30,640 nucleotides of DNA from a virus: IMG/VR virus record IMGVR_UViG_3300032516_000117, positions 1-30,640 of that record. The stretch is one strand, 5' to 3'. Positions 3,170-21,891 of the stretch are shown in pieces (the first letter of the stretch is position 1; the number at the start of each line of letters is the position of its first letter). Made by a program: the position numbers and the translations under genes. The notes below the pieces were generated by a model. The model worked only from the letters and a program-made list of their open reading frames with translations, searched no databases and was not told the origin of the DNA.

Positions 3170-3183
3170 AAAGGAAAACAAAA

Positions 3184-3780
3184 ATGAGAAACGCATTGGT
3201 TCCAATCGTAGTTGAACAAACCGCCCGTGGTGAGCGTTCATATGATCTATATTCACGCTTGATGAAAGAAAGAGTTATTTTCTTTACAGGTGAAGTTGAA
3301 GAAAATATGTGTGATGTTATCGTGGCACAATTACTCTTCTTGGAAGCTGAAAATCCAGAGCAACCGATAAGTATGTATGTCAAGTCTCCCGGTGGCTCTG
3401 TCTATGATGGATTAGCGGTATATGATGTCATGCAATACATTAAGTGCCCGGTTCATACATATGCTATCGGTTGGGCGGCAAGTATGGGATCGTTTATTGC
3501 CCAAGCTGGCGCACCAGGCCACAGATATTTGCTTCCGCGGACAATGACAATGATACACCAACCCGCATCTGGTACAAGGGGTAAGGTTTCTGATATGGAA
3601 ATTGACCTCAGGGAAAGTCTTCGAATGAAGAAAGAGATGACGGAATTGTATGTTAAGCACAATTCCAAGGGTGTAACATACGATCAGTTTGTAACATTGC
3701 TTGACAGAGATAAATGGCTAACTGCACCTGAAGCTGTTGAGCTTGGGTTGGCAGATCACATTGTGGATAAGAGAATATGA
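3184..3780 (+). CDS. clpP: ATP-dependent Clp protease proteolytic subunit ClpP
   Basis: This 198-aa serine peptidase would form the double-heptamer chamber that degrades proteins fed by a Clp ATPase in the cytoplasm. The catalytic triad is intact: S100 in [10 protein letters not shown]125 in MIHQPASG, and D176 in [11 protein letters not shown]. Similarity to bacterial ClpP runs the full length (ALVP near the start, [19 protein letters not shown]). Unlike E. coli ClpP it has no propeptide: only MRN precedes ALVP, the E. coli mature N-terminus. The start is supported by AAAGGA about nine bases upstream. Its stop overlaps the start of the Fe-S carrier gene (ATGA). A matching ClpA with a ClpP-docking IGF loop is encoded at 19666-21891. 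ClpP is known in some phages, often as a prohead protease relative, but this one is of the housekeeping type. Confidence 0.96.
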
Positions 3781-4097
3781 TTACAATTACAGAAAAAGCA
3801 AAAGAAAAAATTATATCAGTCCTCACCGAAGAAAAAGCAACAATGATTCGCTTTGGATTGCAAGGCGGCGGCTGCAACGGATTTACTTATTTCTTTGCAG
3901 TTGAAGAAAAACAGGAAGACGATGATTTTGAGTTTCCTCTTAGCGAGTCGCATAAGATGGTAGTAGATGCGGCGAGTAGTATGTATTTAGAGGAAGCGAC
4001 GATTGATTACAAGAAAGATATGATGGGTGAGAGTTTTATATTCAACAACCCGTCGCAGAAAACAAGTTGCGGATGTGGTAATTCTGTAGGTTTTTAA
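3777..4097 (+). CDS. A-type iron-sulfur carrier (IscA/ErpA/HesB-like)
   Basis: This 106-aa protein matches the full length of A-type Fe-S carriers, which bind iron or an Fe-S cluster and pass it to apoproteins. The three cluster-ligating cysteines are present: C33 in GGGCNGF, and C98 and C100 in the terminal [10 protein letters not shown]. This is the C-x64-C-x-C spacing of the family. The start overlaps the clpP stop as ATGA, so it is translationally coupled to clpP. HesB-like genes are known from cyanophages and other T4-like phages, where the target apoprotein is generally unknown. No Fe-S enzyme is obvious in this window. ErpA versus IscA cannot be decided from the sequence. Confidence 0.92.
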
Positions 4098-4103
4098 TAA
4101 ATA
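4096..4103 (+). promoter_or_regulatory. T4-type late promoter octamer
   Basis: AATAAATA overlaps the stop of the Fe-S carrier gene and lies 23 bases before the hydrolase ATG. It fits the NATAAATA octamer repeated ahead of other genes in this window (T4 consensus TATAAATA). It would give the hydrolase its own late transcript. Confidence 0.6.
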
Positions 4104-4126
4104 CATATATTATAGAAAGGTAGTAC

Positions 4127-4858
4127 ATGGCAAGTCCATCAAAGATGCTATTAGGATTAGAGGCAGCAAGATGCATATATGAATATGGTCTTGGCTGGCT
4201 TTTAAACTCACCTCTACAATTTATTGCACCACCGGGAGATGGGCATCCAGTTTTGGTTATTCCTGGTCTCGGTGGATCTGATGGTTCCACTCAATATATT
4301 AGGAATTTTATTGATGGAATCGGTTACCATTCACATACGTGGGGCTTAGGACGAAACTTAGGTCCACGCCAGGGAATGGAGAAATTACTCAAAGACCTAA
4401 CTGATCGTGTTGCTGAGATATCAGAAGCATCTAATGGCGCACAGATTAGCCTAATAGGGTGGAGTTTAGGCGGTATCTATAGCAGGGAAATAGCTAAGTT
4501 GTGCCCCGATCTTATAAGACAAGTCATTACACTTGGTTCGCCATTTAAATCTGTAGATGATGGAACCAATGCTGCTCGTGTATATGAAATCTTGAGTAAG
4601 GATAAGACTTATAAGAATCCTACCATAGTAAAGCAGATTAGTGAGCCGCCACCGGTTCCGTTCACATCTCTATATAGTAAAACAGATGGTGTGGTACACT
4701 GGAAATGTTCCATTGAGGATGAAAACGATCAATCTGAAAATATCGAAGTTCCTGGCGCAAGCCATATGGGTATAGGTCATAATCCTATTGCGATGTATGT
4801 TATTGCTGATAGATTAAAGCAGACAAGGTCGAATTGGACACCATATAGATCAAAATAA
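4127..4858 (+). CDS. Alpha/beta hydrolase (esterase/lipase-like), bacterial-type cargo gene
   Basis: This 243-aa protein has an alpha/beta hydrolase fold with the nucleophile elbow GWSLGG (S113), an Asp in SKTDGVVHW (D187) and a His in GASHMGIGHNP (H213 or H218). The oxyanion region PVLVIPGLGGSDGST is near residues 42-56. The pattern WGLGRNLGP, GWSLGG, TLGSPF, YSKTDG and GHNP is one I associate with a chromosomal esterase/lipase-like family in proteobacteria. The substrate is unknown; an ester or acyl group of lipid, envelope or a small molecule is possible. No signal peptide is seen, so action is cytoplasmic unless released at lysis. It sits alone between a late octamer (4096) and a terminator (4873), the arrangement expected of an acquired moron. 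Confidence 0.88.
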   Translation: MASPSKMLLGLEAARCIYEYGLGWLLNSPLQFIAPPGDGHPVLVIPGLGGSDGSTQYIRNFIDGIGYHSHTWGLGRNLGPRQGMEKLLKDLTDRVAEISEASNGAQISLIGWSLGGIYSREIAKLCPDLIRQVITLGSPFKSVDDGTNAARVYEILSKDKTYKNPTIVKQISEPPPVPFTSLYSKTDGVVHWKCSIEDENDQSENIEVPGASHMGIGHNPIAMYVIADRLKQTRSNWTPYRSK

Positions 4859-4872
4859 TAATCAAATATAAC

Positions 4873-4895
4873 AAAAGGGCCTTAGGGCCCTTTTT
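4873..4895 (+). terminator. Rho-independent terminator after hydrolase gene
   Basis: A 9-bp stem (AAAAGGGCC / GGCCCTTTT) with a TTAG loop is followed by a run of T to 4895. The stem is nearly symmetric and closely resembles the terminator at 16295. Confidence 0.85.
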
Positions 4896-4903
4896 GCATG
4901 ATC

Positions 4904-4932
4904 TTGACATAATACATAAATTATGTTACAAT
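4904..4932 (+). promoter_or_regulatory. Strong sigma70 early promoter with extended -10
   Basis: TTGACA (4904-4909), a 17-base spacer and TACAAT (4927-4932) with TG at 4924-4925 give a near-consensus host promoter. It lies just after a terminator and 27 bases ahead of the 4959 gene, so it starts a new early transcript. Confidence 0.8.
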
Positions 4933-4958
4933 GTATTATATTAGCAATATAGGATAAG

Positions 4959-5189
4959 ATGGATAAGAATACATACGTACCGATGAATGAATTGATTCGC
5001 GATAAGGATACATCATGGACATTTACACATATAAATCTTCCTTATCACGAAATTGCTAGTAGGGGAATTGTTATTTGGTGTGTACAGAACCTCGAAGGGC
5101 GCTGGACTATGCTAGGTGGCAATAAATTTGGCTTTGAGGACGCGCCTGATGCCACAATGTTTAGAATACAGTTTGGGTTAGGTGCATAA
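4959..5189 (+). CDS. Small unknown early protein with shared C-terminal motif
   Basis: This 76-aa protein is first behind the 4904 promoter. The ATG at 4959 follows AGGA at 4951-4954. Its middle contains HEIASRGIVIWC and the C-terminus reads FGFEDAPDATMFRIQF. That is one of the clearer copies of the motif (aromatic-x-F, acidic turn, D-A, hydrophobic-F-K/R) shared by several tiny proteins here. No catalytic motif, membrane segment or signal peptide is visible. Its position suggests early expression and a role in host takeover, which is only inferred. Confidence 0.75.
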   Translation: MDKNTYVPMNELIRDKDTSWTFTHINLPYHEIASRGIVIWCVQNLEGRWTMLGGNKFGFEDAPDATMFRIQFGLGA

Positions 5190-5192
5190 ATA
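5185..5192 (+). promoter_or_regulatory. T4-type late promoter octamer
   Basis: CATAAATA overlaps the stop of the 4959 gene and ends 26 bases before the next ATG at 5219, the same geometry as the other octamers. Confidence 0.55.
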
Positions 5193-5218
5193 GTTTTGAC
5201 TACAATCGAGGTGATACT

Positions 5219-5416
5219 ATGTACGGAGTTCAAGAATTAAAGCAACGTCTAATCATTATCAAACATTCGGATCTTGATGATGCAACTATCCTCGACGAAA
5301 ATTATCTCCAGCTTATTAAGGAAACACCAAATCCTGACGAGAAGGAACAATTTATAGTCTTACGATCTATTGTCCACCGCAGGATTAAACATTTAATAAG
5401 CGATAACGGAAAATAA
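5219..5416 (+). CDS. Small unknown phage protein
   Basis: This 65-aa charged, helical protein has its ATG preceded by GAGGTG at 5208-5213. I recognise no family. It follows a late octamer and is three bases from the next gene, so the two are probably one unit. Confidence 0.7.
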   Translation: MYGVQELKQRLIIIKHSDLDDATILDENYLQLIKETPNPDEKEQFIVLRSIVHRRIKHLISDNGK

Positions 5417-5419
5417 TTA

Positions 5420-6580
5420 ATGCTCAATATTGCAAAACAGATTTACTCAGGATGGAATACAACAAGTACAAAACACGAATTACCAGAAGCAGAAGTTATT
5501 CCTTTTGGAAATTCATCCAATGAGAAAAAGAGATTAGAAAATATAACAAAGAAGTACACGGTACTTAAAGAACATAATAATATTCCTCTACCGGGATTTA
5601 CATTACATAAGACAGATAGAAAAAACTGGGGATCTTTAGATCAGGCCTGGCTTGTTATCGACCCGCGTGGATATCTAGTCAGAATCAGTAATGATAATTT
5701 AGAAAATATTCTTCATGTTACCGGAGTCACAGAAGGACTGATCCAGGAGAAATGTGTTTGGGCTAGAGAAGATAGTCAAACTAAGATGGTTTTAGTTCCT
5801 GTTAGTTCCCCGACATATCTCGAAGCTTCACAGAATACAGAACTCATTGAGGGTAAGGTTAATCTTAAGGATGTACAGATTGGTGATACGGTCCTACTTC
5901 AAAATGAATTAGTTGGAACATATATGGGTGTCTTATCTCTCTATGCCCCATTTGATTCTTTAGGATACGTATACAAACCGCAGGTATTTCTGCGTAGGCA
6001 AATTATTAGGATTGAAGATGCCAAATATCATTACCAGACAGATCTGAAGATCCTAAAGGTATTGAAGAAAACAGATAATCCACTCACACGAGAGGAATCT
6101 ATGGCATATCTAAACAAGGATATTGCCGGTGGAGCTTCGTATTTTACTAATATCCCCAGTATGCCTAGTTCGGGTTATTATTCATCGCGTGGAATGATCA
6201 AACTAGCATCGATTCACGCAGTTCCGAAAGTACATTTTACCTTAGATGAAATTACTCTTCCCGAAGCAACAGATTTATTTCACACTGCCTTAGCAATTTG
6301 CGATTCGGGTATGTTGATTCTTGAGAATACTCATGGTCGAAAAGTAATGATCGATTTTCCTTATAGTTTTTCAAGTTTTTCAGGAAGAACGCCAACAACA
6401 ATTAATTCCTTTGAAATTGATCATATTGAAGAACTTGTTGATGAGCCGTATGATAGGCTTACACAAATAAAAGATCCAAGTAAATCTTCTTACGGTAAAA
6501 CCAGAACACGGTATTCACTTGACAAATTTGTGAAATTCTATAAAATAGTCAAACATGTAAAACAAGACACTTATGTCTGA
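5420..6580 (+). CDS. Conserved hypothetical phage protein (386 aa)
   Basis: The protein begins MLNIAKQIYSGWNTT and continues with long conserved-looking stretches, such as LPGFTLHKTDRKNWGS near residues 58-73, IDPRGYLVRISNDNLE near 80-95 and IGDTVLLQNELVGTYMGVLS near 155-175. I recall similar hypothetical proteins in T4-like phages but no assigned function. No transmembrane segment, P-loop or nuclease motif is visible; the composition suggests a mixed beta-rich globular protein. It follows the 5219 gene closely and precedes the MazG-like gene by 14 bases, with AAGGA ahead of the latter, so the three may share a transcript. A virion role is possible but not shown. Confidence 0.85.
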   Translation: MLNIAKQIYSGWNTTSTKHELPEAEVIPFGNSSNEKKRLENITKKYTVLKEHNNIPLPGFTLHKTDRKNWGSLDQAWLVIDPRGYLVRISNDNLENILHVTGVTEGLIQEKCVWAREDSQTKMVLVPVSSPTYLEASQNTELIEGKVNLKDVQIGDTVLLQNELVGTYMGVLSLYAPFDSLGYVYKPQVFLRRQIIRIEDAKYHYQTDLKILKVLKKTDNPLTREESMAYLNKDIAGGASYFTNIPSMPSSGYYSSRGMIKLASIHAVPKVHFTLDEITLPEATDLFHTALAICDSGMLILENTHGRKVMIDFPYSFSSFSGRTPTTINSFEIDHIEELVDEPYDRLTQIKDPSKSSYGKTRTRYSLDKFVKFYKIVKHVKQDTYV

Positions 6581-6594
6581 CTATAAAGGAATTC

Positions 6595-7002
6595 ATGGAC
6601 AAAACTATTCTAAACAACTATGCCACATTCGTTGATGGCGTTACCAGCCCAGTAAGTAAAAACACAGACCTCTTTATCGAGCGAATCAAATTTCTACAAT
6701 CACAGGGGTGTGATGTAGCACGTTTAACAACTGCCGGCGTCGGCTTAGCAAGCGAAGGCGGCGAGTTCGACGAAATCGTTAAGAAGATTCTCTTTCACGG
6801 TAAGGAATATAACGAAGATAATATTTTCCATATGAAACGCGAACTAGGCGATATCATTTGGTATTGGATGAATGCTTGTATCGCACTGGGATTTGATCCT
6901 AATCAAGTCATTGAAGAAAATGTCAATAAGCTTGAGGCACGTTATCCGGGTGGAAAATTCTCTGTTTGGCATTCTGAAAACAGGGTAGAAAACGATATCT
7001 GA
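6595..7002 (+). CDS. MazG-like nucleotide pyrophosphohydrolase
   Basis: This 135-aa all-alpha NTP pyrophosphatase-like protein would hydrolyse nucleoside triphosphates to monophosphate and pyrophosphate. The metal-binding pattern is visible: E54 and E57 (ASEGGEFDE) and E83 and D86 (RELGDIIWYW), the E-x2-E...E-x2-D signature of the family. The C-terminus (LEARYPGGKFSVWHSENR) is typical of phage MazG-like proteins. The length fits a single-domain member rather than the two-domain cellular MazG. The natural substrate may be dNTPs or alarmones and cannot be settled here. It is close to dCMP deaminase in the same run of genes, consistent with nucleotide-pool remodelling during infection. Confidence 0.88.
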   Translation: MDKTILNNYATFVDGVTSPVSKNTDLFIERIKFLQSQGCDVARLTTAGVGLASEGGEFDEIVKKILFHGKEYNEDNIFHMKRELGDIIWYWMNACIALGFDPNQVIEENVNKLEARYPGGKFSVWHSENRVENDI

Positions 7003-7003
7003 T

Positions 7004-7240
7004 ATGTCCTTAACTTGGGTACTTAATAGACCATCAACTCCACAAATAGGAGATTGTTGGTATGATAGTTACAGAGAGCAGACTTATATGTGGCAAGGTA
7101 CAACCTGGATGCCTTTAATGGTGAATCCAATGCCTGTGCCACCATTTATACCACCTACGGAAGAACAGCTAGAAAAACATCCGGCATTAAAACAATCATG
7201 GGAAGAATTCTTAGTTGTTAGAAGATTATTGGGTATATGA
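7004..7240 (+). CDS. Small conserved phage protein (PALKQSWEEF motif)
   Basis: This 78-aa protein starts one base after the MazG-like stop. Its N-terminal half is Trp-rich (GDCWYDSYREQTYMWQG), a pattern seen in phage virion proteins that mention a coat of water-exposed loops. A Pro-rich linker follows and the helix HPALKQSWEEFLVVRRLLG ends it, a pattern I recall from small T4-like phage proteins. The function is unknown. Its end overlaps the next gene (ATGA). Confidence 0.78.
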   Translation: MSLTWVLNRPSTPQIGDCWYDSYREQTYMWQGTTWMPLMVNPMPVPPFIPPTEEQLEKHPALKQSWEEFLVVRRLLGI

Positions 7241-7476
7241 CTAAACCAATCTATAAATTTAACTGGCCAAAGAATCGCTGTGAGATAATATTAGCTGATC
7301 TCTCGCCGGAAGAAGTTAATTCAATGGTTGACTATTGCGACGAACTTAATATAGAATTAGAATCTTTTGGTCAGCTTGATGTTAGTGATGTATCTGGATA
7401 TGATACTTTAGCAATATTTAAATTTAAGAATGAAGAAGACGCGTTAATATTCAAATTAAGGTTCAAATGCAAGTAA
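7237..7476 (+). CDS. Tiny unknown protein, shared C-terminal motif family
   Basis: This 79-aa protein is coupled to the upstream gene by an ATGA overlap. It ends in AIFKFKNEEDALIFKLRFK, one of the clearest copies of the shared motif. The N-terminal part begins YKFNWPKNRCEIILADLS. It is followed by two more members (7467 and 7721), forming a head-to-tail trio that looks like duplicated and diverged genes. Function unknown. Confidence 0.78.
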   Translation: MTKPIYKFNWPKNRCEIILADLSPEEVNSMVDYCDELNIELESFGQLDVSDVSGYDTLAIFKFKNEEDALIFKLRFKCK

Positions 7477-7724
7477 ATGTTCGCCACTGGCGATATGAAG
7501 ATGGCTGGCATAATATTCTTCACACAGAAACTAAAGAATTTAGAGAAGATATGGTAGGTTGGCATTGCTGGGCTTATGCAGATTCTGATTTTGAAAAATG
7601 GATGGAACAAAATATGAAGGGCCAGTATGATTGTACATGGCGATTCAACAGCGGCGATCCAATGTATACCATCCACATATATGATGGCGAAGACGCAACA
7701 CTTTTTAAATTGACTTGGATGTGA
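7467..7724 (+). CDS. Tiny unknown Trp-rich protein, shared C-terminal motif family
   Basis: This 85-aa protein overlaps its upstream neighbour by ten bases. It is rich in Trp and His (GWHCWAYADSDFEKWMEQ) and ends IHIYDGEDATLFKLTWM, the family motif. It is the middle member of three adjacent paralogue-like genes. Function unknown. Confidence 0.78.
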   Translation: MQVNVRHWRYEDGWHNILHTETKEFREDMVGWHCWAYADSDFEKWMEQNMKGQYDCTWRFNSGDPMYTIHIYDGEDATLFKLTWM

Positions 7725-7936
7725 GAGTTCTTAAAAAAGAAATTTGGCCACACCGAATTATTATTAAAACATTAGACGAGAGTATTCAGGATACCTGGTG
7801 CAATAAAATGCTTGGTAGAAAATTTGATGATTGGTATGGATATAATATAGACAATGATAAACGAGTATATGCTTTCAAGGATGAGGCAACTTTACTTGTT
7901 TTTAAATTAACATGGGGACAATATGGAATTAGGTAG
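7721..7936 (+). CDS. Tiny unknown protein, shared C-terminal motif family (GTG start)
   Basis: I chose GTG 7721, which makes a GTGA overlap with the previous stop; an in-frame TTG at 7715 is the alternative. The 71-aa product begins VRVLKKEIWPHRIIIKTLDE and ends with YAFKDEATLLVFKLTWGQ, matching the trio motif. Aromatic residues (DDWYGYN) lie in the middle. Function unknown. Confidence 0.75.
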   Translation: MRVLKKEIWPHRIIIKTLDESIQDTWCNKMLGRKFDDWYGYNIDNDKRVYAFKDEATLLVFKLTWGQYGIR

Positions 7937-8231
7937 ATATATAAAGAAGATGGTAAAGACCGTAGTTAAATGGTCTGTAAGCGAGGATAAGAGATATTAT
8001 ACTGAAGATTCATGTGCGCAATCACCGGTAACAAAAGGTTCAAGTATCGGTGATAGATCAAATGGTATGAATTTTACCGTGCATGCTGCTACAGGTGGCA
8101 AGGTAATTCAGGTTAGCGTATATGATCCTCGAACCGATCGGCATAATACCAGTCTGTATGTAATTACAGATAAAGAGGATCTCGGCGAAGAACTTGCTCA
8201 AATTATTACAAAAGAAAGTTTATCTAGATAA
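7923..8231 (+). CDS. Conserved hypothetical phage protein
   Basis: The 102-aa frame starts at ATG 7923 and overlaps the previous gene by 14 bases. ATG 7950 (MVKTVVKWSVSEDKRYY) is a credible alternative start, because the conserved-looking part begins there. The C-terminus reads YVITDKEDLGEELAQIITKE. I recall similar hypothetical proteins in large phages but no function. Its TAA overlaps the dCMP deaminase ATG by one base. Confidence 0.78.
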   Translation: MELGRYIKKMVKTVVKWSVSEDKRYYTEDSCAQSPVTKGSSIGDRSNGMNFTVHAATGGKVIQVSVYDPRTDRHNTSLYVITDKEDLGEELAQIITKESLSR

Positions 8232-8686
8232 TGGAAAATACTCTAAAATGGGATCTTAGATTTCTAGATCTGGCAAAGCTAGTTTCCACTTGGTCCAAAG
8301 ATCCAAGCACCAAAACCGGTGCTGTAATTGTGTCACCTGATCGCCGCGTTGTTTCGGTCGGATTCAATGGTTTTCCAAAAAACATGTTAGACTTACCGGA
8401 AAACTATTCCAACCGCGAAGAAAAATATAGTCGAATAGTTCATTGCGAGATGAATGCACTTTTGTTTGCAAAAGAAAGTACCGCCGGATGTACACTGTAC
8501 ACCTGGCCGTTAATATCGTGTGATAGATGCTTTGTACATATGGCTCAAGCCGGATTAACAAGATTTGTTGCACCAAAACCATCTTTGGAAATTCTTACCA
8601 GATGGGGAGACGCACTGGACCGTGTGCGTAAATATATAAAAGAGACTGGGTTAGAACTAGTGGAATTAGATATAGAGTTAACATAG
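8231..8686 (+). CDS. dCMP deaminase
   Basis: This 151-aa zinc-dependent deaminase converts dCMP to dUMP, the precursor for dTMP synthesis. The zinc site is visible: H71 and E73 in HCEMNAL (E73 as proton shuttle), and C97 and C100 in SCDRC. The N-terminal SKDPSTKTGAVIVSPD and GFNGFPKNM are typical of deoxycytidylate deaminases. The usual P-C-x2-C motif is written as PLISCDRC, with the Pro further from the first Cys. It starts on the TAATG overlap with its neighbour and lies in the same gene run as the MazG-like protein. Length and motifs match phage dCMP deaminases. A relaxed deoxycytidine-type activity is not excluded. Confidence 0.92.
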   Translation: MENTLKWDLRFLDLAKLVSTWSKDPSTKTGAVIVSPDRRVVSVGFNGFPKNMLDLPENYSNREEKYSRIVHCEMNALLFAKESTAGCTLYTWPLISCDRCFVHMAQAGLTRFVAPKPSLEILTRWGDALDRVRKYIKETGLELVELDIELT

Positions 8687-8691
8687 CCGTC

Positions 8692-8865
8692 GTGGAATTA
8701 GATGATAACGAGATGGACAGGATCCTAACGCCTTCAGAAGAGGAGCAGACCATTCTAATATTGGCAGGGAAATGTCCACACAATAAGGGGTGGCGATATT
8801 CGGGGCATGGGCATAATGACGATGCATATGAATGTAAGCTTTGTAAAGAAATCAAGTGGTGGTAA
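8692..8865 (+). CDS. 57-aa putative zinc-knuckle protein
   Basis: A short frame from GTG 8692 to TAA 8863-8865 encodes 57 residues. The C-terminal half has C28-P-H30 (KCPHNKGW) and C48-K-L-C51 (YECKLCKE), with H39 and H41 between. That is a plausible C-x-H...C-x2-C zinc knuckle. The N-terminal half is acidic (SEEEQT). Coding is supported by this motif and by its tight fit between dCMP deaminase and the next promoter. ATG 8713 is an alternative start. The function is unknown; nucleic-acid or protein binding would be usual for such a knuckle. Confidence 0.6.
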   Translation: MELDDNEMDRILTPSEEEQTILILAGKCPHNKGWRYSGHGHNDDAYECKLCKEIKWW

Positions 8866-8871
8866 ATCCAG

Positions 8872-8900
8872 TTGACAACAATCTTAGTCTAGTATAAAAT
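8872..8900 (+). promoter_or_regulatory. Sigma70 early promoter
   Basis: TTGACA (8872-8877), a 17-base spacer and TAAAAT (8895-8900). It lies in the gap before the 8937 gene and would give a leader of about 30 bases. Confidence 0.75.
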
Positions 8901-8936
8901 ATAAGCTCAACAACCCAACTTTACAGAAAGTGTAAT

Positions 8937-9206
8937 ATGAACAAGCAAACTACCCCTAAGGCCACTCCGGTGAACCTGAAAGAGCAGAACGCGGCTCATA
9001 CCTTCCGTGTTACGATTCGTGATCGCGAACATTTCTACAAGCTTGTCAATTGGCTCAATGCCAACGTCGGCAAGGGCGAAGATAAGTGGACAATGGAAGG
9101 CCGTGTACTGAAGACACTGAAGGGCGGCAAATCGGTTAGCCCAAAGATCTATATTTTCAAACAGGATTTTGATCCGGCGTCTTCGCTGTACCTTAGCCTT
9201 CTGTAA
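8937..9206 (+). CDS. Unknown early protein with its own strong promoter
   Basis: This 89-aa protein is first behind the 8872 promoter. It contains HTFRVTIRDREHFYKLVNWL and VGKGEDKWTMEGRVLK, and ends IYIFKQDFDPASSLYLSLL, loosely like the shared C-terminal motif. The codons are noticeably richer in G and C than those of its neighbours (for example gcg, ggc, cgt), suggesting high expression or a different origin. No enzymatic motif is seen. Its stop overlaps the next ATG by one base. Confidence 0.8.
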   Translation: MNKQTTPKATPVNLKEQNAAHTFRVTIRDREHFYKLVNWLNANVGKGEDKWTMEGRVLKTLKGGKSVSPKIYIFKQDFDPASSLYLSLL

Positions 9207-9475
9207 TGTCATCTTTCCACGGTCATTCGGTTGTGACCGTGGATGATGACATTGTCCTCTTTAAGTTTATTGAATCCATTAATGTCAGAGATGCTGAGGA
9301 TATGGTGGTAGATAAACTTAAAGGGGATGTCACTCTCTCAATAAGAACCATATCCGGAAAAGAACACATTGTATCAATGAATAGAATGTGGAATGTAATT
9401 GGTGGAGGAACAATTCGTGGACAAGAATTGGCTTCTAGCATATGCGAAAAATGGCTATGGATTAATAAACCGTAA
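9206..9475 (+). CDS. Small unknown phage protein
   Basis: This 89-aa protein starts on a TAATG overlap with the 8937 gene. It contains DDDIVLFKFIESINVRDAED early and a Trp-containing C-terminus (CEKWLWINKP). No family is recognised. It belongs to the early transcript from 8872. Confidence 0.75.
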   Translation: MSSFHGHSVVTVDDDIVLFKFIESINVRDAEDMVVDKLKGDVTLSIRTISGKEHIVSMNRMWNVIGGGTIRGQELASSICEKWLWINKP

Positions 9476-9486
9476 TGGAGATATAA

Positions 9487-9729
9487 ATGAAACAGCAAGG
9501 AAGATGCATTGTTGGTGATCTACGTGTGGTAGATAGTTATACCTCTGATTGGATGTCTATTAAGATGCATCCTGCTACTTTTTATCGTCGCCAGGCTGAC
9601 ATTCTTCCTACCTTAGAAAAAATTAAGGGCCTATATGCTGAACTCGACATGGGTCAGTATATTCTTCTGCGATTTTCTGAGAAGGATGATGTCACTGCCT
9701 TTCATAAGCGCCATCACGAATACATATGA
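9487..9729 (+). CDS. Small unknown protein, weak member of the shared-motif family
   Basis: This 80-aa protein is preceded by TGGAGAT at 9476-9482. It ends YILLRFSEKDDVTAFHKRHH, a weaker version of the shared C-terminal motif. The stop is in an ATGA overlap with the next gene. Function unknown. Confidence 0.75.
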   Translation: MKQQGRCIVGDLRVVDSYTSDWMSIKMHPATFYRRQADILPTLEKIKGLYAELDMGQYILLRFSEKDDVTAFHKRHHEYI

Positions 9730-10160: not shown

Positions 10161-10197
10161 ATCTGTGTCATCTTTTGTAAGACTGGTCTGAACCTGC

Positions 10198-10205
10198 CAT
10201 AAATA
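10198..10205 (+). promoter_or_regulatory. T4-type late promoter octamer
   Basis: CATAAATA lies in the gap after 10160, 22 bases before the ATG at 10227, with AGAGGA between as ribosome binding site. Confidence 0.6.
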
Positions 10206-10226
10206 CAGATAATAAGAGGACACCGT

Positions 10227-10475: not shown

Positions 10476-10480
10476 TAACT

Positions 10481-12383: not shown

Positions 12384-12699
12384 AGGCACGACATTGGATA
12401 TGGATTCCATTCGTCGTGAAAATGAGAAAGTTCCAGCAATTGGAAATATGAAAGTAAATGCCAAGGGTGATCAAATTAAGGATGGCCGCGTAACCAAGAC
12501 TGCTGATCAGATTGCTCGCGAAAATCACAGAGTTCAATCTACCATAGTAAATACTGGCCTGAAGGGCCCTGTTCCCGCAGCACCTGCAACGGTATTAGAG
12601 GCACCAAAGGCATCCAGAGTTGCAAAGACAACAAAGGCAATGAAAGAAGTAGAGTTGCCCAGTGGCGACATTGTTATGAAAGAAGACGATGAAAATTAA
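12361..12699 (+). CDS. Conserved hypothetical phage protein (112 aa)
   Basis: The ATG at 12361 is preceded by GGAGA at 12351-12355, which lies inside the end of the homing endonuclease. The 112-aa product begins MSRHVTYRGTTLDMDSIRRE and contains GNMKVNAKGDQIKDGR and ARENHRVQSTIVNTGLKGP, which I recall as a conserved pattern in T4-like phages. The C-terminal third is Ala/Pro/Lys-rich and then acidic. No function is known to me. Its end overlaps the GroES-like gene by 11 bases. Confidence 0.82.
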   Translation: MSRHVTYRGTTLDMDSIRRENEKVPAIGNMKVNAKGDQIKDGRVTKTADQIARENHRVQSTIVNTGLKGPVPAAPATVLEAPKASRVAKTTKAMKEVELPSGDIVMKEDDEN

Positions 12700-13042
12700 A
12701 GCACTCAAAGGTAAAGTCCTTGTTACCGACCTGGAACGAGGATCGCGTGTAGTCAATGGAATTATTATTCCGAGCGATGATGGTAAGAGTGAGGGTATAC
12801 GCCCACGCTGGTGTAAAGTATATTCTGTTGGAGAAGACATCACAGATATTACACCCGGACAATGGATTCTTGTTGAACATCTACGATGGACTCGTATGAT
12901 TAAGATCAGACAGGAGGACGGTACATATCTTCAATTATTTGGAGTAGAATGGCCACAGGCATGTATGCTTGTTTCTGACGATGATCCAGAGACAGCAATT
13001 TTCTCCGTATTTTCACAGGCAAACGAACGCGCTCAGACTTGA
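12689..13042 (+). CDS. GroES-like co-chaperonin (Cpn10 fold), putative
   Basis: This 117-aa protein follows the GroES plan: an opening beta strand (MKIKALKGKVLVTDLE), a mobile-loop-like segment ending VNGIIIP, a CKVYSVG strand corresponding to GEVLAVG, then G-x-WILVEH where GroES has GD-x-VIF. Length is close to GroES (97 aa) and T4 gp31 (111 aa). Phage members of this fold replace host GroES so that GroEL can fold the major capsid protein. The hydrophobic IIIP tripeptide in the loop would be the GroEL contact. Similarity is by pattern only, so the call is moderate. It overlaps the previous gene by 11 bases, and its stop lies within the next promoter. Confidence 0.7.
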   Translation: MKIKALKGKVLVTDLERGSRVVNGIIIPSDDGKSEGIRPRWCKVYSVGEDITDITPGQWILVEHLRWTRMIKIRQEDGTYLQLFGVEWPQACMLVSDDDPETAIFSVFSQANERAQT

Positions 13043-13067
13043 CATTTCTATTGTTCATAGTTATACT
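13039..13067 (+). promoter_or_regulatory. Sigma70 early promoter for clamp loader unit
   Basis: TTGACA (13039-13044), a 17-base spacer and TATACT (13062-13067). The -35 overlaps the stop of the GroES-like gene. Transcription would start about 19 bases before the GTG at 13093. Confidence 0.75.
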
Positions 13068-13092
13068 TGTTACAAATTAGAAAGGTCAGTCT

Positions 13093-15266: not shown

Positions 15267-15712
15267 CACAACGAATTCTTGTTATGGGCCTTCCGGGTGC
15301 CGGAAAGACAACACTTGCAGAAAAGCTTAGGATATATTTTGAGCATTATGAAAAGAAAGTAATCTGGCTAAATGCCGATAGAGTTAGAAAAGAATACAAC
15401 GATTGGGATTTTAGTCACGAAGGTCGAATCAGGCAGAGTCATAGAATGCGCGAACTTGCAGATAAGATTGAATGTGATTTTGTTATTTGTGATTTTGTTG
15501 CGCCATTGGTTGAGATGAGAAATAATTTCAATGCACATTGGACTATTTGGGTAGATACGATTGAAAGGGGGCGGTTCGACAATACAAACAGAGTATTTGT
15601 TCCACCCGATGTATATGATTTCAGGGTGATAGAACAGGATGCCGAAAAATGGGCTACGTTCATAACAAATCATATCCTAAAACTCAGCATGACTAAATTA
15701 GGACTTAAATAG
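15263..15712 (+). CDS. P-loop kinase, adenylylsulfate-kinase-like
   Basis: This 149-aa protein starts with GTG in a GTGA overlap with the HAD gene. It has a Walker A motif (MGLPGAGKTTL, residues 8-18) and a substrate loop VIWLNADRVRKEYND at about 33-47. That is the arrangement of adenylylsulfate kinases (LDGDNVRHGL) and of related nucleotide and polynucleotide kinases. The lid and nucleotide-binding region is short, and the second half (WTIWVDTIERGRF) matches the later beta strand of the fold. Phosphorylation of a small molecule or of a nucleic-acid 5' end is expected; APS is not certain. Context with a HAD phosphatase favours end-processing or nucleotide metabolism. Confidence 0.82.
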   Translation: MTQRILVMGLPGAGKTTLAEKLRIYFEHYEKKVIWLNADRVRKEYNDWDFSHEGRIRQSHRMRELADKIECDFVICDFVAPLVEMRNNFNAHWTIWVDTIERGRFDNTNRVFVPPDVYDFRVIEQDAEKWATFITNHILKLSMTKLGLK

Positions 15713-15733
15713 GTATTAGAATTCCTAATCTTT

Positions 15734-15741
15734 GATAAATA
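15734..15741 (+). promoter_or_regulatory. T4-type late promoter octamer
   Basis: GATAAATA is in the gap after the kinase, 23 bases before the ATG at 15765, with AGAGGA between. Confidence 0.6.
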
Positions 15742-15764
15742 CTGCTACCATAAGAGGAAACGGT

Positions 15765-16094
15765 ATGCAAGTAATGCAGACAATCAAAGAAAATCAATGG
15801 AAAATCTTATTAGGTTCTTCCGGCACTATCATTACGCTAGTGGCAACCCTTTTTACGCTCGATGCACGTTATGCCCATGCCGCAGATGTCGAGAAGGATA
15901 AGCAACAAATTCATTTAGCAGTTAAATCAGCGGTATCTAATCTACGAAAACAGAATCTCGAAGATAAATTATTTGAATTAGATATTAAGAGGGAGCAAGC
16001 ACCTAATCAACGCCTATCTCCTATAGATGCAGCATTAGCAGCAAGATATAAAAGACAATTAGAAGAAATTATACAAAAGAAGGATAATAATTAA
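15765..16094 (+). CDS. Small membrane-anchored protein A of tandem pair
   Basis: I chose ATG 15765, preceded by AGAGGA at 15753-15758; an in-frame TTG at 15732 lies in the promoter. The 109-aa product has one hydrophobic segment near residues 13-32 (ILLGSSGTIITLVATLF), then DARYAHA, then a charged helical tail likely to form a coiled coil. With few charges before the segment, N-in C-out topology is likely, placing the tail in the periplasm. The sequence KIL-x-G-x2-GTII...DARY-x-H is repeated in the next gene. A role in lysis or at the envelope is possible. It is expressed from a late octamer. Confidence 0.78.
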   Translation: MQVMQTIKENQWKILLGSSGTIITLVATLFTLDARYAHAADVEKDKQQIHLAVKSAVSNLRKQNLEDKLFELDIKREQAPNQRLSPIDAALAARYKRQLEEIIQKKDNN

Positions 16095-16286
16095 ATGTTA
16101 GAATTTCTCAAGAATCATTATGGAAAAATCTTAACTGGTACTACCGGAACAATTATTTTTACCGTTGTCGGTATTTTCTTTTCAGATGCAAGATATGTAC
16201 ATCAGACTAAAGAAAAAGAATATAGAGAATCAGTACAGAAACAAATAGATACTATTCAAAAACGTATAGACGAACTTAAAAAATAA
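16095..16286 (+). CDS. Small membrane-anchored protein B of tandem pair
   Basis: The ATG follows the previous stop directly. This 63-aa protein has a hydrophobic segment (ILTGTTGTIIFTVVGIFF) followed by SDARYVHQ and a short charged helix (YRESVQKQIDTIQKRIDELK). It is a shorter paralogue of the upstream gene, so the two arose by tandem duplication. The function is unknown; two single-span proteins with periplasmic coiled coils could act together at the membrane. Confidence 0.78.
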   Translation: MLEFLKNHYGKILTGTTGTIIFTVVGIFFSDARYVHQTKEKEYRESVQKQIDTIQKRIDELKK

Positions 16287-16294
16287 GAACATTA

Positions 16295-16317
16295 AAAAGG
16301 GCCCTTGGGGCCCTTTT
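16295..16317. terminator. Bidirectional rho-independent terminator
   Basis: A perfect 10-bp stem (AAAAGGGCCC / GGGCCCTTTT) with a TTG loop sits between the convergent membrane-protein gene and phoH. A-tract and T-tract flank both sides, so it can work in both directions. Its stem is almost identical to the one at 4873. Confidence 0.88.
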
Positions 16318-16318
16318 G

Positions 16319-17077
16319 TTATTCATCCTCCCCATATACGTCAAGGACTTCCGCTACTAACGGATCTCGTTCAATGTGGCATCTCTGAAATGTACATACT
16401 GCCATCGACCTAGTTTTGTACGAAGCTAGTTTCTCTAAGAAATCTTTTAGACCATTCTTATCAAATCCACGATCATGTTGTTTTAAGTCACCGGTAATAA
16501 CCATACTGCTACCGTCGCCAATACGTGTCAATAACATCTTAGTTTGATCTGGCGTTGCGTTTTGCATTTCATCAGCAATAATATAGGCATACTTGAATGT
16601 GCGGCCGCGCATAAAGCCCAAGGGCGCAATTTCGATGGTGCCCTCATCAAGCATTCTCTTTGTCTCTTGTAGTCCGTAATACTCTTCAAATACATCAAAG
16701 ATCGGGCGTGTCCAAGGTTCCATTTTTGCATTTAAATCTCCCGGTAAAAATCCATGTTTTTCGTCTACACTCACTGCCGGACGTGTTAGGATAATTTTTG
16801 TTACTTCTTGTTCTCTTAATGCCTTAATAGCACGTAAGACCGCAAGTAATGTCTTACCTGTACCTGCAGGACCTACTGCAAATACCATTCTTTTTTCTAG
16901 CAAGGCTTCGATGTATGTTTCTTGTGCCGTATTACGTGGGAGCATTTCTACTCTTTTATAATTACGATTACCAAGCTTGACTACATTTGTGGACTGTGAC
17001 TCATCTACGAAATTTTTTACTTGACGTGATGAACGTGATTGTGGCTGTGCCTTCGCCATTCTGCGATTTTTGCTCAA
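16319..17077 (-). CDS. phoH: PhoH-like ATPase
   Basis: This 252-aa protein is a PhoH-family ATPase with RecA/helicase-like motifs: Walker A VGPAGTGKT, Walker B YIIADEMQNATPDQTKMLL, and GDLKQHD. The family is common in T4-like and marine phages; its role is not settled, though RNA or nucleic-acid handling is suspected. The start I favour is TTG at 17075-17077, because AAGGAG (complement 17085-17090) sits seven bases before it. The first internal ATG at 17059 has no such spacing, and the frame is open to an ATG at 17179 with only a weak site. It is one of two minus-strand genes and converges on the terminator at 16295. The N-terminal 35 residues are basic and Ser/Gln-rich, unlike the core. Confidence 0.93.
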   Translation of the reverse strand: MSKNRRMAKAQPQSRSSRQVKNFVDESQSTNVVKLGNRNYKRVEMLPRNTAQETYIEALLEKRMVFAVGPAGTGKTLLAVLRAIKALREQEVTKIILTRPAVSVDEKHGFLPGDLNAKMEPWTRPIFDVFEEYYGLQETKRMLDEGTIEIAPLGFMRGRTFKYAYIIADEMQNATPDQTKMLLTRIGDGSSMVITGDLKQHDRGFDKNGLKDFLEKLASYKTRSMAVCTFQRCHIERDPLVAEVLDVYGEDE

Positions 17078-17084
17078 GGTTATG

Positions 17085-17090
17085 CTCCTT
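17085..17090 (-). promoter_or_regulatory. Shine-Dalgarno sequence deciding the phoH TTG start
   Basis: The minus strand reads AAGGAG here, seven bases ahead of the TTG at 17077-17075. No equally good site precedes either in-frame ATG. Confidence 0.65.
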
Positions 17091-17259
17091 AGTAGTGGTT
17101 TTTGTGGAGTTAGCGGAATTCTGGGCAGGGAGTGCCCATCCGCGGAAACGTCGATAATAGTACCGAGTGTATTTTGCATACCTATTACTTATGACTTTCT
17201 AAAGGTAGAGGATTGGATTGAGGTGTCTTTTCAAAACTTTCAAAATCTCTCAAGTTATA

Positions 17260-17267
17260 GATAAATA
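17260..17267 (+). promoter_or_regulatory. T4-type late promoter octamer
   Basis: GATAAATA is 19 bases before the ATG at 17286, with AGAGGG as ribosome binding site. The rest of the 208-base gap back to phoH holds no further gene or clear promoter that I can see. Confidence 0.6.
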
Positions 17268-17285
17268 ATCAAAAGAGGGTAACGG

Positions 17286-17858
17286 ATGACAACTGATCTA
17301 GATAGCATCAAGCAGACTTTAGTAGGAATTTCAAAGGGTGATACAATTTTGGACACCTTGTTGGAGTTTGAGCGCACATTAGATAATGCTGAAATCTTTG
17401 CCTATAAGAATTGGATTCTTGGAGAATTGGTAGAAGGTCCGGAGATTGGAAGATACTGGTATAAGACTGTGTGGATGTATCCATACGCAATGATGCCAGA
17501 TCCAGATGCAGGATTGCGTTTAACCAAGCTCGGCGCCAAAGTAAATTTTAGAAAAGGAATCTTCAAGAGACCTGTTAAGGTTAAGGGACCAGAGGATTGG
17601 GTAGATCCACAAAGTAAGAGAGCCAAGATGGTTGACAGCGATGTCTGGCTTGTAACAATAGAATTGCCGATTAAGTATATCAATCGCGGATTGCAGGATT
17701 TAGATGATATCATCCAAAAAGATATTGATGATACAAATGAAGAGATAGCAAGTGCATTCGCGGATGAAGCACCACCAGAACAGGAAGCACCAGAACAGGA
17801 TATTACACCAGACGATATGGGTGGTCCTGGAGAGATGCCACCAGAGGAAGAAGTATGA
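17286..17858 (+). CDS. Conserved hypothetical T4-like phage protein (190 aa)
   Basis: This 190-aa protein begins with an acidic helical region, then IFAYKNWILGELVEGPEIGRYWY and VWMYPYAMMPDPDAG. I recall similar patterns in hypothetical proteins of T4-like phages. The last 35 residues are an acidic, Pro-rich tail (APPEQEAPEQ, GPGEMPPEEE). It is late-promoted and coupled to the next gene by ATGA. A virion-assembly role is inferred from late expression only. Confidence 0.82.
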   Translation: MTTDLDSIKQTLVGISKGDTILDTLLEFERTLDNAEIFAYKNWILGELVEGPEIGRYWYKTVWMYPYAMMPDPDAGLRLTKLGAKVNFRKGIFKRPVKVKGPEDWVDPQSKRAKMVDSDVWLVTIELPIKYINRGLQDLDDIIQKDIDDTNEEIASAFADEAPPEQEAPEQDITPDDMGGPGEMPPEEEV

Positions 17859-18607
17859 GCTTAAAGAATGGCGATCTAGCAGGCACCATCTTGCCAGACG
17901 TTTCGATCGACGAGTTTGAACCTAAGGCCGGTGATGAAAAAGATGTTATTGTTGTAGCCTTCTATCTCAATGATCAAAACCCTGCTGATGACCTAAATAC
18001 ATTCATCCAACGAGGGTTTATCGACACCCTGGATGTTGAAGTAAGTCCCAATACAGATGAAGAAGGGCGCTATCTCGTCTTTGTCGAAATGTCGAGAGAT
18101 GATACCTTCCCTAACAAGTTCCAAGCCTTATTAAAGGACATTGGTAACTTATCTGGTAATATGGATTGGACCGTAAAAACATACCTTGCAGACGACAGAG
18201 CGTTCAAGTTTAATGATCCGGAACTATTCAATTACTTAATTCTTCAACCAGAAGCATATGTACCTAAGGACGAATTTAAAATGCAAGATATGAAAGAAAG
18301 TATCAATCAATTCTTTAAAGAATCCTTGGTGTCAGACTTGACTATAGATGGTAATGTCGTTACACTGACACACAACAGAAGAAAGATCGTCGCGGAAGTT
18401 GTGGATGTGGGCGATTATGATGTTGTGATTGGAAGAAACTTCCTAAGCGAATCTGCTTTTGGAGTTGGCAAGAATCCGCATGAAGCTAATGTATTACAGA
18501 GCATGTTGGGCAATTGCCAAATACTTCCACTCGGAAAATATCTTTGCGTCAGTAGGGACGACAAGGTAATGTTACTTAAAAATACACAACTTAATTACGG
18601 AGTTTGA
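17855..18607 (+). CDS. Conserved hypothetical T4-like phage protein (250 aa)
   Basis: This 250-aa protein starts on an ATGA overlap with its neighbour. It includes [21 protein letters not shown] near the start and a conserved-looking [20 protein letters not shown] near residue 180, ending in [14 protein letters not shown] helical linker ([19 protein letters not shown]) separates two likely domains. No enzyme motif is seen. It precedes IF-1 with only four bases between. Function unknown; probably acts with the 17286 product. Confidence 0.82.
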
Positions 18608-18611
18608 TAAC

Positions 18612-18827: not shown

Positions 18828-18835
18828 AGAATTAA

Positions 18836-19657
18836 ATGAGCAAACGGGATTACTACGAAATCCTTGGCCTTGCAAAAAATGCATCCGACGACGATATAAA
18901 GAAAGCATATCGTAAGCTCGCGAGCAAATATCATCCAGATAAGGTGCAAGGAGAGGCTGAAAAAGCATCTGTTGAAGTAAAATTCAAAGAGGCTAAAGAA
19001 GCCTATGAGCAACTCAGTGATCCCGAAAAAAGAAAATTGTATGATCACTACGGATTCAATGAACCTAGAAATCCCTTTGCGCACGGTACTCGTGCTACTT
19101 CACAAACATGGAATTTTGAGGATATCGGAGACATGCAACATGTCTTCGAAGAAATCTTTAGAAATAATGCGGCCAGGGGATTTACACAGGCCAGAACTCA
19201 TACCCCAACCATTCTGACTATTTCGTTACAAGATGCATATATAGGCTGTACAATAAAACACGGTGATACCACAATACAGGTACCAAAGGGAATTAGAACA
19301 GGAACTAAGCTATATGTAAATGGTAAGATGTTCCAAATTGATGTCCGACCGGATGCTAAATTCAAACGTGCATTAGACGACTTGATGATTGAAATAAATA
19401 TTACAGCAATCGAGGCTATGTTAGGCATTGAAGCTACGCTCGGGACATTAGATGGGAATAAATTACAATTCACCATCCCTGAAGGAATACAATCTGGACA
19501 AATTGTAAAATTGTCCAAGGTGGGAATGAAAAATCCCGAAACAGGTGCTATTGGAGATCTTCTAGTACGCATAAATATTACTATACCTAAAGATTTACAA
19601 GAGTTTGAAAAGGTCTCCCTCCGGAATCTATCACATAGAGATTCCATTACTATATAA
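18836..19657 (+). CDS. dnaJ: DnaJ/CbpA-like J-domain co-chaperone
   Basis: This 273-aa protein starts with a full J-domain containing HPD at residues 33-35 (YHPDK), which stimulates DnaK ATPase, after [21 protein letters not shown] short linker with FAHGTRAT follows, then two peptide-binding beta domains from about 120 ([14 protein letters not shown]). There is no Cys-rich zinc-finger region, so it is the type II, CbpA-like architecture rather than the classic DnaJ. The gene lies nine bases after infA and eight bases before clpA. With host DnaK it would fold or feed substrates. Because it is directly ahead of clpA, supply of substrates to the protease is plausible. Confidence 0.94.
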
Positions 19658-19665
19658 GGATTACA

Positions 19666-21891
19666 ATGAGTACAAAGAAGGTAGAGAAGATGATTGAACG
19701 TGCGGTGGCAATTGCCAACGATAATAATCACGAATATGTGACACTTGAACATATCCTATTATCGTTGTTGCACGAAAAGGATGTCAATGAACTTATCCTA
19801 TCCATCAATGGTCAGCCAGCTAAAATTAAGGCAGATGTAATCCAGTTTTTAGGCCAACCCGAACTCAAGAAGCCGGATGCCCTAAAGGATGTTCCTGCCA
19901 AAAGAACAGCAGTTCTACAACGCACATTTCAGAGAGCATTGACACAACTTGTATTCAGTGGTCGTAATGAACTTAGTAATGAGGCAGTTCTTCTAAGTAT
20001 CCTAAGTGAGGAAACAAGTCACGCATATTACTTCTTAGGTAAGAACGGTGTTTCCAGAGAGAAGATTATCGCCCAGTTGCGTAAATCTGAAGAAAAAGCA
20101 GCTACGGAAGGCACAGGTGAAACACCACTTGATTTATTTGCTCGCAACCTGAACAAAGAAGCAGCCGATGGAAGTATTGATCCGGTTATCGGACGCGAAC
20201 GCGAAGTTAAGGACACAATCGAAATCTTAGCTCGTCGTAAAAAGAATAACGTAGTCTATGTTGGTGAACCTGGTGTTGGTAAGACTGCACTTGCAGAAGG
20301 GCTTGCACTCAAGATTACAAAGAAAGAAGTTCCAAAGGCCCTACAAGACAAGGTTGTCTATAGTTTGGATTTGGGTGCATTACTTGCCGGGACAAAGTTC
20401 CGCGGTGATTTTGAAGAACGTCTGAAGGGTGTATTAGATCAAGTTAAGAAGCTTGGTAATTGCATTATGTTCATTGATGAGATTCATATGGTTCTTGGTG
20501 CAGGTTCAACAACCGGTAGTCAAATGGATGCTGGTAATTTGTTGAAGCCTATGCTTGCTAAGGGTCAACTCATGTGCGTAGGTGCTACCACATATGATGA
20601 ATTCCATGAACACTTTGAGAAGGATAAAGCCTTACTGCGTCGTTTCCAAAAGTACGACATTGATCAACCATCAGCAGCAGAGACAAAACTCATCCTTGCC
20701 GGTATTGCTTACCAGTATGAAAAATTCCACGGAGTTACATTCGAGGATGGCGCACTTGATATGTGCGTTGATTTAGCTGATCGCTACATGAAACAAAAGT
20801 TCTTCCCTGACAAGGCTATTGATATTATGGACTCAGCAGGTGCTATTGCAAAGCTTCAAGATGAAAAAATAGTAACTATTGACATGGTTCTAAAGCAAGC
20901 GTCCAAGCTTGCCAGAGTACCCGCACAGATGATGAATTTGAAGGAAAATGACGCACTTGCTAACCTTGCTCCACGTGTTAAGAATGTTGTATATGGGCAG
21001 GATCTGGCTATTGACAACTTGGTAGCGTCAATCTTCTTGTCTAAATCGGGATTGCGTAATCCAACCAAACCTATTGGATCTTTCTTATTTACTGGTACAA
21101 CTGGTACAGGAAAGACCTATACCGCTAAGAAGCTTGCTGAAGCACTTGGCGTGAAATTTATACGCTTTGACTTGTCTGAATACATGGAAAAGCATACGGT
21201 ATCCAAGCTGATCGGTGCTCCACCTGGCTATGTTGGCCACGGTGAGGGTAAGATGGGCGAAGGACAACTTATTCAAGCAATTGATACTAATCCAAATGCC
21301 GTATTATTGCTGGACGAAGTTGATAAGGCGCACCCTGATGTTATGACGGTGCTCTTGCAGGTTATGGACGATGGCCGTCTAACTTCCTCTAAGGGCAAGA
21401 CCGTTGACTTCTCAAACGTGATTATCATTATGTCGGCCAATCTGGGATCTGCAGATGCAGAAAAACTTAAGATTGGATTCGGAGATCAGGATAATTCGGG
21501 TGCAGTGGAAAAAGAAATCAAGCGATTCTTTAGTCCAGAATTTAGAAACCGGTTGGATGCAATTGTTAAATTCAACAAGTTAACAATGGTTGAAATGAAC
21601 CTTATTGTTAATGCCGAAGTTGATAAGACAGAAGTATTGCTCGCTCCAAAGAACATTAGTCTAAATGTTACTCAACAGGCTCGCGATTGGCTTGCACAGA
21701 ATGGTTACGATCCTATGATGGGTGCGAGACCGTTTGAGAGATTGTTTGAAACTAAAGTTAAGATGCCACTATCTAAAGAAATCTTATTTGGCAAATTAAT
21801 GAATGGTGGAAGAGTCAATGTTGATATGCTTGGCGATGAAATTAGCGTTACAGTTTTAGATCTAATCGTCGAAGAAACCATAATTCTATAA
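19666..21891 (+). CDS. clpA: ATP-dependent Clp protease ATP-binding subunit ClpA
   Basis: This 741-aa AAA+ unfoldase has an N-terminal Clp repeat domain (residues 1-145), then two ATPase modules. Walker A1 GEPGVGKT is near residues 200-207 with FIDEIHMVLG; Walker A2 GTTGTGKT is near 477-484 with LLLDEVDKAHPDV. There is no ClpB/ClpC middle domain, so it is ClpA-type (E. coli ClpA 758 aa). At residues 603-605 it has IGF, in KIGFGDQDN, at the same place as the IGL loop of E. coli ClpA that docks on ClpP. The same phage encodes ClpP at 3184. The arginine-rich SPEFRNRLDAIV segment follows the loop. It begins eight bases after dnaJ and ends at a terminator, so infA, dnaJ and clpA form one operon. 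Confidence 0.96.
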   Translation: MSTKKVEKMIERAVAIANDNNHEYVTLEHILLSLLHEKDVNELILSINGQPAKIKADVIQFLGQPELKKPDALKDVPAKRTAVLQRTFQRALTQLVFSGRNELSNEAVLLSILSEETSHAYYFLGKNGVSREKIIAQLRKSEEKAATEGTGETPLDLFARNLNKEAADGSIDPVIGREREVKDTIEILARRKKNNVVYVGEPGVGKTALAEGLALKITKKEVPKALQDKVVYSLDLGALLAGTKFRGDFEERLKGVLDQVKKLGNCIMFIDEIHMVLGAGSTTGSQMDAGNLLKPMLAKGQLMCVGATTYDEFHEHFEKDKALLRRFQKYDIDQPSAAETKLILAGIAYQYEKFHGVTFEDGALDMCVDLADRYMKQKFFPDKAIDIMDSAGAIAKLQDEKIVTIDMVLKQASKLARVPAQMMNLKENDALANLAPRVKNVVYGQDLAIDNLVASIFLSKSGLRNPTKPIGSFLFTGTTGTGKTYTAKKLAEALGVKFIRFDLSEYMEKHTVSKLIGAPPGYVGHGEGKMGEGQLIQAIDTNPNAVLLLDEVDKAHPDVMTVLLQVMDDGRLTSSKGKTVDFSNVIIIMSANLGSADAEKLKIGFGDQDNSGAVEKEIKRFFSPEFRNRLDAIVKFNKLTMVEMNLIVNAEVDKTEVLLAPKNISLNVTQQARDWLAQNGYDPMMGARPFERLFETKVKMPLSKEILFGKLMNGGRVNVDMLGDEISVTVLDLIVEETIIL

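Follow-up and report, generated by a model that had tools for sequence, protein, structure and literature searches.

The window, that is the whole stretch of DNA analysed here, is a linear virus record of 30,640 bases (IMGVR_UViG_3300032516_000117) which possesses genes for both ClpP and ClpA. The clpP gene is situated on the plus strand at 3184..3780 and codes for a cellular-type protein of 198 amino acids. The clpA gene is found on the same strand at 19666..21891 and codes for 741 amino acids. An earlier note on this DNA had placed both reading frames at these positions, about 16 kb apart, and both were found there with 15.9 kb between them. A phoH-like gene on the minus strand (16319..17179; Pfam PF02562, E=3.4e-69) lies between the clpP and clpA groups, and it is reasonable to consider that the two genes belong to different units. 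A gene for a dnaJ-like co-chaperone, with a J-domain (HPD at residue 33) and a DnaJ_C domain identified by Pfam, is present on the plus strand at 18836..19657, only 8 bp before clpA.

The DNA belongs to a PA5oct-like jumbo phage, of which the window covers one part. In tblastn, the best match for ClpA was in PA5oct-like phages with 48.5% identity, and high matches for ClpP were obtained in Atu_ph07, Phosso and PA5oct-like phages. Fifteen window genes are collinear with the region 179-197 kb of PA5oct, the exception being that MazG and dCMP deaminase are exchanged. The nearest IMG/VR relatives are contigs of up to 385 kb. One contig, 3300031997_000652 (hereafter G044), differs from window positions 2-18312 by 5 mismatches and no gaps over 18,311 bases (99.97% identity). 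It reaches 12.9 kb upstream of the window start, and this extension contains genes for Hsp20, ClpS, a SufBD-like protein, superoxide dismutase (SOD) and DNA ligase.

The window ClpP matched Pfam PF00574 (CLP_protease) at E=9.8e-68, and E. coli ClpP matched it in phmmer at E=3e-64 (residues 4-196). The phmmer alignment along with an index check placed S100, H125 and D176 on S97, H122 and D171 of E. coli ClpP in mature numbering, in agreement with the intact triad which the earlier note had claimed. The Ser-His-Asp triad was unbroken in all 32 phage ClpPs compared. The protein does not have the 14-residue propeptide of E. coli ClpP and starts almost at the mature N-terminus, and its N-terminal axial segment, with the residues YSRL, aligns to the mature E. 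coli protein. AlphaFold2 models were built from alignments of relatives and represent single chains, so they are silent on docking. The ClpP monomer was modelled with a predicted local distance difference test (pLDDT) score of 92, and its best match in the PDB was E. coli ClpP, with a template modelling score of about 0.93-0.98 and a root mean square deviation of about 1 Å. The positions that form the docking cleft in E. coli ClpP are occupied by aromatic or aliphatic residues in the window protein, S60 being the exception, and these residues fall within the range seen in cellular ClpPs. Judged by its sequence, the window protein is a true cellular-type ClpP of peptidase family S14.

The window ClpA matched phrog_4871 at E=4.5e-244, and Pfam domains identified Clp_N, the D1 and D2 AAA rings and ClpB_D2-small. 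Among solved structures, the closest relative is E. coli ClpA (1ksf/6w1z, E about 1e-197), followed by ClpC and ClpB. The Walker A and B motifs and the pore loops KFRGDFE and GYVG were all unbroken. An IGF tripeptide is present at residues 603-605 (21472..21480, plus strand), and a gap-free alignment set it on IGL 617-619 of E. coli ClpA, the position which had been proposed for it earlier. In E. coli, the IGL loop of ClpA and the IGF loop of ClpX dock into hydrophobic clefts of ClpP (PMC7707817). The ClpA monomer was modelled with a pLDDT of 84 and matched ClpC and ClpA chains, and residues 600-612 formed a lower-confidence loop with no secondary structure. The docking tripeptide was kept in 66 of 68 viral ClpA/Hsp100 homologues, as IGF in 55, VGF in 6, IGV in 2, and FGF, IGY and IGM in one each. 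Among 58 ClpA-type viral homologues, the column entropy at residues 603-605 was 0.25, 0.00 and 0.47 bits, against 2.7 and 2.6 in the two columns before the tripeptide and a median of 1.24. In the clade close to the window ClpA, the tripeptide is encoded with all four codons for glycine, three for isoleucine and both for phenylalanine. Because of this low entropy beside variable flanks and the synonymous codon change, the tripeptide is not expected to be there by chance, and the pattern indicates that purifying selection at the protein level holds the motif. Such selection leaves the identity of the ClpP partner unspecified. In the group of RaK2, 121Q and Vibrio phages, the loop is IGV or IGM and the cleft residue L114 of ClpP is replaced by G or T, a possible paired change which, being found in one clade, counts as one event.

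A separate observation on clpA concerns two loci (L012 and L013, 10001-13311), where a reverse-strand HNH-like homing endonuclease reading frame stands behind an intact clpA and is followed by a short duplicate of the clpA 3' end, as if the endonuclease gene had carried in a piece of another clpA with it. An intron in these clpA genes was considered and rejected, as clpA is intact and the extra match is the short 3'-end duplicate behind the HNH-like frame.

The ClpS gene of G044 (PF02617, E=6.5e-22) is situated about 8.5 kb upstream of window base 1. Its product possesses N34, D35 and H66 along with an N-terminal extension, and these three residues, which in E. coli ClpS grip the N-terminal amino group of the substrate, were kept in all 25 phage ClpS sequences compared. 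In ClpS of the window clade, F mostly takes the place of E. coli M40, which restricts specificity there, and T mostly that of M62. E. coli ClpS delivers N-degron substrates, and its N-terminal extension goes into the ClpA channel (PMC9663308). No phage-encoded Leu/Phe-tRNA transferase was found among 18 related records, so that N-degrons would have to be made by the host transferase or arise by proteolysis. Two related records have more than one such gene: a second, divergent ClpS-like gene which does not have the equivalents of D36 and K84 is present at G019:C1:205165-205371, and G040 contains two ClpS genes.

The relatives were gathered by similarity to clp genes, so the frequencies given here describe this lineage and not jumbo phages at large. 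ClpA, ClpP, ClpS and ClpX were all present in each of the nine related records larger than 230 kb that were tested. PA5oct and the close clade have the genes in the order clpX, clpS, clpP, clpA on one strand within about 26-35 kb, with dnaJ adjoining clpA, and this order is looser in more distant records. Of 39 loci, 30 had a J-domain gene upstream of clpA at a distance of at most 2.1 kb. One record of 216 kb (G031), which may be incomplete, showed ClpA and neither ClpP nor ClpS. The ClpS query matched 17 records in the phage collection, 14 of them named isolates (PA5oct-like phages, Atu_ph07 and Phosso), and all 14 were also among the ClpA and ClpP matches. ClpX carries the tripeptide IGI or IGL in G002, G005, G011, G013, G014 and G019 (L256-L261), mostly IGI in the close clade, and MGF in PA5oct, and the ClpA of these phages has IGF. 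The phage ClpX and ClpA may thus compete unequally for ClpP. That close-clade phage ClpX is devoid of a docking tripeptide was also considered and was rejected, since the alignment shows IGI or IGL.

All parts required for an E. coli-type ClpAPS cycle are present with their key residues, namely those of the cleft, the pore loops, the Walker motifs and the ClpS extension. We consider it probable that the phage, a jumbo phage of the PA5oct type, has a self-contained ClpAPS protease of its own, the ClpP of which probably also serves phage ClpX, and very likely that ClpA and ClpP would form one active protease. The presence of both halves with the docking motif kept had been pointed out earlier, and the ClpS gene upstream of the window strengthens it. 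Assembly of the phage ClpA with the phage ClpP, the activity and the targets are what we infer from these features. In the proposed cycle, phage ClpP would form a 14-subunit peptidase barrel, onto which hexameric phage ClpA would dock by its IGF loops. The D1 and D2 pore loops of ClpA would unfold substrates and feed them into ClpP, and phage ClpS would pass substrates with an N-degron to the N-domain of ClpA. Phage ClpX, encoded by related genomes, would probably be served by this ClpP too. During infection, such a machine would likely work alongside the phage DnaJ, GroES-like and Hsp20 proteins and clear misfolded protein as well as selected proteins of the host or the phage. A more far-reaching version is put forward only tentatively, as we regard it as rather unlikely: the lineage would have a complete private ClpX/A/S/P system, independent of host ClpAP, in which the altered N-degron pocket of ClpS (M40F and M62T in most members of the window clade) and a replaceable ClpP module would allow phage-chosen proteins to be degraded according to their N-terminal residue.

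To understand whether clpA and clpP were inherited together, as the earlier note had proposed to check by phylogeny, trees of both proteins were compared. The phage ClpAs formed one clade against the sampled bacterial ClpAs (98/98), as computed without the divergent G037 and SCTP-2 sequences. No single clade was resolved for the phage ClpPs, and a single clade was not rejected (approximately unbiased test, p-AU 0.295). The ClpAs of two relatives, G014 and G020, are 79% and 76% identical to the window ClpA and firmly inside the close clade (100/100). Their ClpPs are 52% and 50% identical to the window ClpP and group together. Forcing these two ClpPs into the close clade lowered the log likelihood by 41 and was rejected (p-AU 0.006, somewhat optimistic as the groups were picked after the identities were seen). 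The G014 gene (G014:C1:115723-116295) is at the usual site, between the DnaQ-like gene and the Fe-S carrier gene, and the G020 gene (G020:C1:52315-52896) is directly upstream of the same hydrolase gene. Strict co-inheritance of the pair is hence rejected, and joint acquisition is not borne out in detail: in these two relatives, ClpA stayed conserved, and ClpP apparently either was replaced at its site or evolved at an unusual speed. Such natural swaps are ready-made tests of the specificity between ClpA and ClpP.

Some observations weigh against a self-contained machine. The docking cleft differs from that of E. coli ClpP by Y60S, F82Y, I90Y, M92I and F112Y; Y82, Y90 and Y112 are also found in cellular ClpPs of Oligoflexia and Bacteriovoracaceae. 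The apparent exchange of ClpP with no change of ClpA implies that the pair is not tightly co-evolved, and a host partner could serve too. The 12.9 kb by which G044 extends the window phage upstream showed no clpX, a gene present in PA5oct. A rival reading is that of mixed machines, in which phage ClpA, together with ClpS, would dock mainly on host ClpP, or phage ClpP would work with host ClpX, host ClpA or host ClpP rings, so that the phage would retarget the host protease and not build a separate one. The IGF loop and the ClpP cleft are generic enough for that, and a permissive interface with room for host partners is favoured because ClpP was replaced or diverged beside a conserved ClpA in G014 and G020. 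Phage ClpS was also proposed in an earlier survey to bring targets to host ClpAP (PMC7824862). If host ClpP were enough, however, frequent loss of the phage ClpP would be expected, and all nine large related records keep ClpP with ClpA; we judge mixed machines to be unlikely. A division of labour, in which ClpA (with DnaJ) would mainly remodel virion or replication proteins as a chaperone and ClpP would work mainly with ClpX, so that the two genes are functionally separate, would explain that clpA adjoins dnaJ and virion-protein homologues and that clpP is among DNA-metabolism genes. ClpX is encoded by the related phages, and the earlier survey suggested that ClpA could be an assembly factor or a translocase (PMC7824862). 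If ClpA were purely a chaperone, loss of its docking tripeptide would be expected, yet it holds IGF, with mostly IGI in the close-clade phage ClpX, and both the ClpA N-domain and ClpS are retained, which makes separate functions quite improbable.

A role of ClpP in head maturation is suggested by PHROG and RefSeq labels and by several annotations of PA5oct-like phages in databases. The earlier note had preferred a complete protease over a prohead protease, and the relatives agree with that choice. A separate gene for an S77 (T4 gp21-type) prohead protease is present in 15 of 18 related records, and it is far from clpP in all seven isolates with this ClpA and in eight of the nine related metagenomic records above 230 kb. 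As a result, ClpP is not needed for prohead cleavage. The window protein, moreover, shows the full cellular ClpP sequence including the axial segment, its gene has DNA-metabolism genes as neighbours, and no capsid, portal or terminase gene was recognised within the window, although a prohead protease gene normally adjoins capsid genes. With a separate S77 protease in the relatives, the prohead role was rejected and is already largely refuted; where some PA5oct-like records call ClpP a 'head maturation protease', the name probably stems from a shared fold family. A self-contained ClpAPS protease is the reading which we retain as the probable one.

The pairing of ClpA and ClpP is not new. It is also found in PA5oct, Atu_ph07, Phosso, SCTP-2, RaK2 and 121Q, and ClpA, ClpP and ClpS together are already annotated in Atu_ph07 and PA5oct. 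PA5oct and its relatives (Wroclawvirus, Arenbergviridae) encode a ClpA and a ClpP 48.5% and 50.5% identical to those of the window, and the PA5oct ClpP carries an electrospray ionisation tandem mass spectrometry (ESI-MS/MS) note in GenBank. The gene order of PA5oct is nearly that of the window phage: clpX, hsp20, clpS, DNA ligase, DnaQ-like, clpP, MazG, chaperonin, clamp loader, phoH on the minus strand, two virion-protein homologues, dnaJ and clpA. Beyond PA5oct, the window phage has an A-type Fe-S carrier gene at clpP and, in G044, the SufBD-like and SOD genes; clpX is the PA5oct gene not seen in its sequence at hand. Atu_ph07 and Phosso resemble the window lineage in having ClpA, ClpP, ClpS, ClpX and a dnaJ upstream of clpA, and differ in that the genes are scattered across the genome and ClpA is about 42% identical. 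In the Atu_ph07 paper, DnaJ and a ClpP-type subunit were listed besides ClpX, ClpA, ClpB and ClpS for a single phage, and these proteins were proposed to act in assembly, in replication and in the removal of aggregates (PMC6102473). RaK2/121Q-like phages and Vibrio phage 2.275.O likewise encode ClpA and ClpP along with a separate S77 protease, and they showed no ClpX at the family's level and no ClpS at the sensitivity used. In comparison with E. coli ClpAPS, the phage proteins share the domain order, the triad, the tripeptide position, the pore loops and the ligand-anchoring residues of ClpS, and differ in the cleft residues of ClpP, in IGF for IGL, in M40F and M62T of ClpS and in the absence of a propeptide of E. 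coli length in ClpP. A survey of 2021 reported ClpP in some jumbo phages and ClpS 'instead' in others (PMC7824862), unlike the window lineage, in which the two co-occur. According to a 2025 survey, one lineage of large aquatic phages has ClpA as a near-core gene (PMC12619734), and a jumbo-phage review of 2026 makes no mention of Clp. The open literature searched contained no functional test of a phage ClpAP. The present analysis adds the linkage of the genes in X-S-P-A order, the selection acting on the tripeptide of ClpA, the exchange of ClpP in place and the changed N-degron pocket of ClpS. The jumbo phages of this lineage appear to hold regulated proteolysis as a set and not as a stray gene, and if the machine is real, it would offer a direct route to the proteins which a phage chooses to destroy.

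Other features of the window were also recorded. The A-type Fe-S carrier gene (3777..4097, plus strand; Pfam PF01521, E=3.4e-17; C33, C98 and C100) shares an ATGA overlap with the clpP stop codon. Along with the genes for a SufBD-core-like protein and an Fe/Mn superoxide dismutase adjoining clpS (L154 of G044, 4624-6223), it makes up an Fe-S and oxidative-stress gene set linked to the protease genes in the window phage. A GroES/Cpn10-like co-chaperonin is encoded at 12689..13042 on the plus strand (Pfam PF00166, E=5.9e-5), syntenic with the chaperonin gene of PA5oct at 37% identity. Window positions 11173-12383 contain a gene for a stand-alone DNA polymerase III alpha-like protein of 178 amino acids (phrog_11127), with a NUMOD3 homing endonuclease directly after it. 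No Rfam family matched in the window. Downstream of clpA, at 21990-30638, there are long genes for 1080, 632, 677 and at least 288 amino acids with no Pfam match, and the two searched against PHROG gave no match; at the same place, PA5oct has structural proteins detected by mass spectrometry.

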